NCBI RefSeq assembly: GCF_029227915.1
Contig: NC_079885.1
Location: forward strand, 9,236,001 to 9,300,000
Direction: 5' to 3'
From: Hydractinia symbiolongicarpus
Taxonomy: Eukaryota; Cnidaria; Hydrozoa; Anthoathecata; Hydractiniidae
DNA length: 64,000 nt
The notes under the pieces are model-generated. The model had not been told where the DNA came from and did no database searches. It was given only the letters and a program-made list of their open reading frames with translations. Below, piece by piece: positions 206-27,603 of the stretch. How positions within the stretch are numbered: position 1 is the first letter of the stretch; every line of letters starts with the position of its first letter. The translations under genes were made by a program, and so were the position numbers.

Positions 206-355
206 CAGACTTAGTAGCAGTAAGATATTTATCTTTAGATACAATTACTTTTGATAATACGATTTCAAGAAATGGATACGTAGCTACTGGAACTTGTTCT
301 CGATCTCCAGATGCCACATCAGCATGTTCAGATGCTGAATTATCTAAAATTGCAG
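206..355 (+). CDS. First visible exon, unassigned N-terminal segment
   Basis: About 50 residues are open and end at a clean donor (GCAG/GTATTG) in phase 1, which matches the lectin exon that follows. The segment has two cysteines and the string [13 protein letters not shown] do not recognise a domain; it may be the end of a larger one whose start lies left of the window. The acceptor could be the AG at 204-205 or the one three bases later. Confidence 0.55.

Positions 356-27603: not shown

Follow-up and report, generated by a model that had tools for sequence, protein, structure and literature searches.

An adhesive ectodomain joined to a predicted K+-filter, glutamate-receptor-type channel module in a cnidarian gene family

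GluR0 of Synechocystis and AvGluR1 of the rotifer Adineta vaga are, according to the excerpts of the reports available to us, glutamate receptors that are K+ selective or carry a K+ filter (PMC12226733, PMC12332018, PMC11479355). The same excerpts describe AvGluR1 as having the architecture of the eukaryotic ionotropic glutamate receptors (iGluRs) and as being opened by amino acids (PMC12226733, PMC12332018, PMC11479355), and GluR0 as having no helix after S2, the second half of the ligand-binding clamshell (PMC11479355). The present analysis concerns a gene of Hydractinia symbiolongicarpus at positions 206-27603 (+) of a stretch of 64,000 nucleotides (contig NC_079885.1, positions 9,236,001 to 9,300,000; hereafter the window), which is predicted to encode a giant adhesive ectodomain followed by an iGluR-type module with a K+ filter. 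Compared by description, it resembles AvGluR1 in being an animal protein of iGluR topology with a fourth helix and a K+-channel signature in the pore loop, and it resembles GluR0, a K+-selective bacterial glutamate receptor, in the K+-channel-type filter. It differs from AvGluR1 in its adhesive ectodomain, of which the excerpted descriptions make no mention (PMC12226733, PMC12332018, PMC11479355), and from GluR0, which by its excerpted description also lacks an amino-terminal domain. The initial annotation had ascribed the whole plan to GluR0, but the helix after S2 places the topology of the window protein with that of the eukaryotic iGluRs and AvGluR1. The K+ channels of the Ion_trans_2 family (Kv, SthK, K2P) have the pore helix, the filter and the inner helix in common with the window protein, whose pore, however, follows an extracellular domain and should therefore be inverted, and which has no voltage sensor. 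Giant adhesive ectodomains, with a lectin and other modules, are also carried on the channel-like membrane part of the polycystin-1 family, which differs in having eleven helices, in being related to TRP channels and in lacking both a K+ filter and a clamshell. No FN3-bearing or otherwise adhesive version of a K+-filter iGluR was found in the titles and abstracts listed by the literature searches. Channels of the K+-filter iGluR kind were already known; new, as far as found, are the exchange of the ectodomain, the size of the family and its occurrence in Hydractinia, Nematostella and Oculina, genera which we take to span the hydrozoans and the anthozoans.

Within the window the gene has 41 exons joined in phase throughout, which encode 3,352 residues with a lone stop at the end and are bounded by AG and GT (for the first exon the AG was identified by eye). 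The exon for the last fibronectin type III (FN3) module (21949-22251) is continued in phase by the exon for the first clamshell half, S1, and helix M1 (22927-23393), the first residues of which complete the motif ETCKC. Four long database relatives were found, namely Nematostella LOC5512975 (3,337 residues), Oculina ACROYT_G035690 (1,467 residues) and two Hydractinia proteins (2,385 and 2,014 residues); ETC[K/R]C stands at the FN3-to-channel junction in all four, which represent three genera, and the window protein forms one continuous alignment of about 1,200 residues, from the TSP1 modules to the tail, with each of the relatives P0005 and P0004. Since the four long relatives share the FN3-ETC[K/R]C-S1 junction, the fusion of the adhesive ectodomain and the channel appears to be real and no artefact of the gene model, and the junction 22251/22927 is confirmed by sequence comparison. 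A fifth and shorter Hydractinia protein (P0001), 60% identical, starts at an internal Met. All five relatives carry only the database names uncharacterized or hypothetical protein.

The genome itself was found to hold the S1-M1 exon at a minimum of 18 loci when searched with the module of the window, two of these in two pieces. The 17 loci other than the window all have FN3 matches ahead of S1 on the same strand, the nearest 63-1,227 bp away, and then S1, a pore with YGD and an S2 with the same Asp in this order. The description of the locus as one gene with an adhesive ectodomain and a K+-filter module of the glutamate-receptor type is thus borne out by the unbroken phases, the shared junction and the constant order of the parts, while the alternative outcome considered in the initial annotation, two separate genes, is contradicted by the comparison; neither is the gene a single oddity, in view of the other loci and the relatives in Nematostella and Oculina. 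Two pairs of loci (L086/L087 and L095/L096) are nearly identical and may be recent duplicates or assembly haplotypes, so that the distinct genes may number 16-18. P0001 matches contig C8 of the 481 Mb H. symbiolongicarpus assembly (the window lies on C11) with 81-99% identity per exon piece; P0001, P0004 and P0005 are taken to be paralogues within the same genome and not representatives of independent species. At the P0001 paralogue on C8 (L078, C8:27657373-27657881) the S1 exon falls in two reading frames in the assembly, which may explain the late start of the database protein.

The C-terminal module has the order S1-M1-P-M2-S2-M4-tail. After the exon for S1 and M1, the linker from M1 to the pore loop (P) and the pore helix, ending in TMTTLG, are encoded at 23717-23814 (+), as delimited by the alignment with P0001 and by Ion_trans_2; YGDYVP and helix M2, the equivalent of M3 in iGluRs, at 24229-24385 (+); the second clamshell half S2, with a conserved Asp (module residue 287), at 25174-25512 (+); and the helix after S2, the M4 of iGluRs, at 26572-26731 (+), with a hydropathy of 2.67. 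The pore TMTTLGYGDYVP (module residues 183-194) crosses the splice 23814/24229 (intron 23815-24228), which splits the codon of the filter Gly (TTL-GG|N-YGD); the acceptor pattern before YGD is present at 18/18 loci including the window, and the donor half, by a strict pattern, at 12 of the 18. TTLGYGD is unchanged in all six aligned sequences, and the pore profile matches bacterial K+ channels with an E-value of 5.1e-18. Three helices and a pore loop were predicted in each of the five modules that have S1. Upstream of the module no strongly hydrophobic stretch was found, except at the start of the Nematostella protein, and the relative P0003 has a signal-peptide-like start. As no helix intervenes between the ectodomain and M1, and in view of this start in P0003, the N-terminal side is predicted to be extracellular and the pore loop to enter from the cytosolic side, like that of iGluRs; an N-Y-T sequon in the S2 of four of the six aligned members fits S2 lying outside. 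The final exon (27359-27603, +) encodes a Lys-rich and presumably cytosolic tail with the stop codon, which is helical in a weak model of P0001. Spaced Phe and Leu residues are kept in this tail in five aligned relatives, and its match to DUF6846 stays below threshold.

Among the profile assignments envisaged for the module, that to Ion_trans_2 holds (E-value 4.8e-12, 46 bits against a cut-off of 22.5), whereas Lig_chan reaches only 22.9 bits, under its cut-off of 30.8 (17.4-26.9 bits in four relatives, with P0005 not listed), and Pfam finds no binding-protein-type domain in S1 or S2 taken separately. Kinship with ordinary iGluRs was assessed against six exons from among the best Lig_chan matches of the same genome (Lig_chan matches 43 places, some of which are K+ channels by position). 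The module profile aligns with these exons over 128 columns that begin at the S1 end and cover M1, P and M2 (M3 of iGluRs), with a score of 34.1 (E-value 0.0013); none of 200 shuffles was as good (best 29.0). In this alignment the filter stands opposite the pore loop of the iGluRs. When the membrane part was omitted, S1 and S2 scored 16.4 against the same exons, which is not significant; these exons seem to contain little of S2. The ordinary exons carry an FQ[K/R]D loop and no GYG in any of the six. The initial annotation described animal iGluRs as lacking GYGD, but AvGluR1 was, by the excerpts cited above, already known as an exception. They also possess two features that are not conserved in the family of the window, the agonist-binding Arg and an M3 gating motif of the SYTA type (SYTA, TYTA or AYTA). 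Since this Arg and this motif are unconserved, the module is not filed as an iGluR proper; as judged by its sequence it is related to iGluRs, and its mode of action is most likely that of a K+-filter iGluR.

The clamshell assignment was approached by comparing profiles of S1 and S2 with periplasmic binding proteins. A five-sequence profile of S1 and S2 scored 22.4 against six amino-acid-binding proteins of E. coli, the best of 15 single-protein controls scoring 17.9, but this test was weak, as 2 of 300 shuffles were as good and the reversed alignment scored higher (24.3). The binding-protein side was widened to 16 sequences by the addition of ten plasmid-borne ones, chosen among 60 of 2,084 records. 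Against this profile S1 and S2 scored 38.7 (E-value 7.7e-5, probability 62%) over 156 columns across both halves; none of 400 column shuffles was as good (best 28.0), the reversed alignment scored 21.2, and profiles of two K+ channels, one ABC ATPase and one permease gave at most 15.3. The ordinary iGluR exons, as a positive control, matched the same profile with an E-value of 1.6e-11. The register is as expected: PPYV...G falls on the first strand and helix, and the S2 series runs up to the Asp. With S1 alone (18 sequences) the match was weak (score 18.1; 3 of 300 shuffles did as well) but kept this register. The S2 Asp, present in all six aligned sequences and at 17/17 loci, aligns with the Asp of the QDE of HisJ; in iGluRs an acidic S2 residue holds the amino group of the agonist. 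In a low-confidence model of P0001, S2 has the order strand-helix-helix-strand-helix-helix-strand-strand-helix. The two-lobe fold proposed for the module is thus supported by the profile match, whereas the structure predictions (AlphaFold, alignments of five sequences) reached pLDDT values of 45 and 57, too weak for judging the fold. By profile only, S1 and S2 would form a two-lobed ligand-binding domain of the PBP2 type.

Taken together, the window gene is likely to belong to a cnidarian family of giant receptor-channels, each joining an adhesive ectodomain to an inverted K+ channel that is gated by a clamshell. Four subunits would form an upside-down K+ pore whose loop enters from the cytosol; a ligand, or a change of conformation within the S1/S2 clamshell, would pull on M1 and M2 and open the pore, and the open channel would release K+ and quiet the cell. 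The ectodomain may, with less certainty, anchor the channel in the matrix or at contact sites. More speculatively, the C-x-C after the last FN3 module and a C-x-x-C in S1 could staple the rod to the first lobe, and by way of this staple binding or tension from outside could perhaps bias the clamshell; a role of the ectodomain as a sensor of the matrix or of a partner is likewise speculative.

Gating by soluble small molecules, as in AvGluR1 or GluR0, with an ectodomain that plays no part in it, is possible though somewhat unlikely. The profile kinship of S1 and S2 with amino-acid-binding proteins speaks for it, as does a basic residue (G-R/K-F) that, on our reading of the alignment, is kept in the agonist-Arg loop among the closer paralogues of the window. 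However, the canonical Arg, which in iGluRs holds the carboxylate of the agonist, is missing from the aligned position, where the window has Leu and, by our reading at the same offset, the relatives have Gln or Lys, and the conservation of the FN3-C-x-C-S1 junction also argues against a passive ectodomain. No invariant basic residue was found in S1. Module residue 66, ahead of the second S1 helix, is basic in most S1 sequences (Lys in 18 and Arg in 1 of 20). Because the carboxylate-binding Arg is unconserved, though the acidic S2 residue is kept, it is improbable that the clamshell binds an ordinary alpha-amino acid in the manner of glutamate.

The clamshell might also be a relic on a K+ leak that is always open or otherwise controlled, with an ectodomain that does no more than place the channel in the matrix or at contact sites. 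The replaced agonist Arg would suit such a channel, as would the divergence of the paralogue S1 exons, which are 22-67% identical to that of the window among the matches listed; but the S2 Asp is kept at all 17 loci besides the window, and T-C-x-C, C-x-x-C and one Gly are invariant in 19/19 S1 sequences that reach the N-terminus (L078, being partial, excluded). The constancy of these residues points to constraint on the S1-S2 domain and speaks against a relic, which is unlikely. An artefact of gene prediction that joined an adjacent adhesion gene and channel gene is highly improbable, for although the relatives' proteins are database entries and possibly predictions too, the order is identical at the 17 paralogous loci, the junction is identical in the four long relatives from three genera, and the reading phase passes unbroken from the last FN3 exon into that of S1.

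If the receptor-channel reading is true, the family provides a natural receptor in which a single chain serves both cell adhesion and K+ conductance. It would also add a second lineage of animals that has a K+-filter channel of the iGluR type, with far more genes than the excerpted reports describe for the rotifer. Its many natural sequences would serve the study of an inverted K+ filter and of clamshell gating without the usual agonist residues, and the family bears on how an animal with a nerve net could convert contact into inhibition. The wider proposal of a new cnidarian sensory class, in which matrix- or contact-gated, K+-selective channels, whose adhesive rods are several thousand residues long and fastened to a clamshell of the iGluR type, are encoded at about 16-18 loci with differing ectodomains, each reporting another surface or partner by silencing, is tentative and rather unlikely as it stands.

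The ectodomain, encoded throughout on the plus strand, was in part as first listed. The MAM domain (1406-2995, exons 1406-1942, 2142-2404 and 2872-2995; E-value 8.9e-12), Laminin_G_3 (3166-5518, exons 3166-3538, 3704-3815, 4024-4207, 4505-4621 and 4889-5518; 5.3e-10, two stretches), the FN3 modules and four TSP1 modules (15325-15495, 17015-17167, 17561-17737 and 18012-18188; TSP_1 1.5e-29, four stretches) were recognised by Pfam. A spacer exon with Cys (16142-16462) lies within the TSP1 region (15325-18188). For fn3 (1.1e-66) Pfam gave eight stretches over the whole scanned part, and twelve modules were counted by exon-wise reading: nine in eight exons between 9607 and 15000 (starts 9607, 10587, 11001, 11475, which is double, 13073, 13486, 14108 and 14680) and three next to the membrane (20371-20667, 21182-21481 and the exon adjoining S1), co-linear with two paralogues. 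The remaining labels fared less well. The C-type-lectin-like domain (930-1262; Lectin_C E-value 0.0011, 20.1 bits against a cut-off of 22.6) and the second, SEA-like domain (18575-19829, exons 18575-18684, 19038-19111 and 19690-19829, the middle one included by phase; SEA E-value 0.055) stay below cut-off, the exon labelled EGF (4505-4621, inside the Laminin_G_3 stretch) has an E-value of 0.59 only, and the exons of the first SEA (6375-6439, 6529-6599, 7299-7432, 8031-8146, 8743-8810 and 8935-9089) are open and in phase and have no Pfam match. That the usual amino-terminal domain is replaced agrees with the absence of a Pfam match to an LIVBP-like domain in the 940 and 1,925 residues scanned upstream, FN3 immediately preceding S1.

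The gene was rebuilt from the genomic sequence alone, from seed exons chosen by eye, through a small model of codons and splice sites, to bookkeeping of phases. Six short exons that the automatic model had proposed were discarded as spurious and some exon ends were adjusted by judgement; exon 19038-19111, absent from the automatic model, is the longer of two nested phase-compatible candidates. Position 206 is not the start of the gene: the first exon in the window (206-355, +), placed by the phase chain, is counted as internal because a rough model extends the gene through the 20 kb on its left, with a further Laminin_G_3 (4.5e-8) and an F5/8 C domain below cut-off in this rough prediction. 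Tandem arrays occur at 5963-6331 (AT repeat), 15933-16104 (28-bp units), 19332-19535 (17-bp units) and 59181-59668 (127-bp units), the first three in introns of the gene. Downstream, with rough exon limits, lies a gene for an NADH dehydrogenase-like flavoprotein (about 30785-39163, minus strand; Pyr_redox_2 4.2e-48), in which an EF-hand-like stretch was noticed by eye only. A rough gene model at about 54577-57400 matches RVT_1 (2.9e-5, below cut-off) and a PHD finger (3.3e-7) and perhaps represents the remains of a retroelement.
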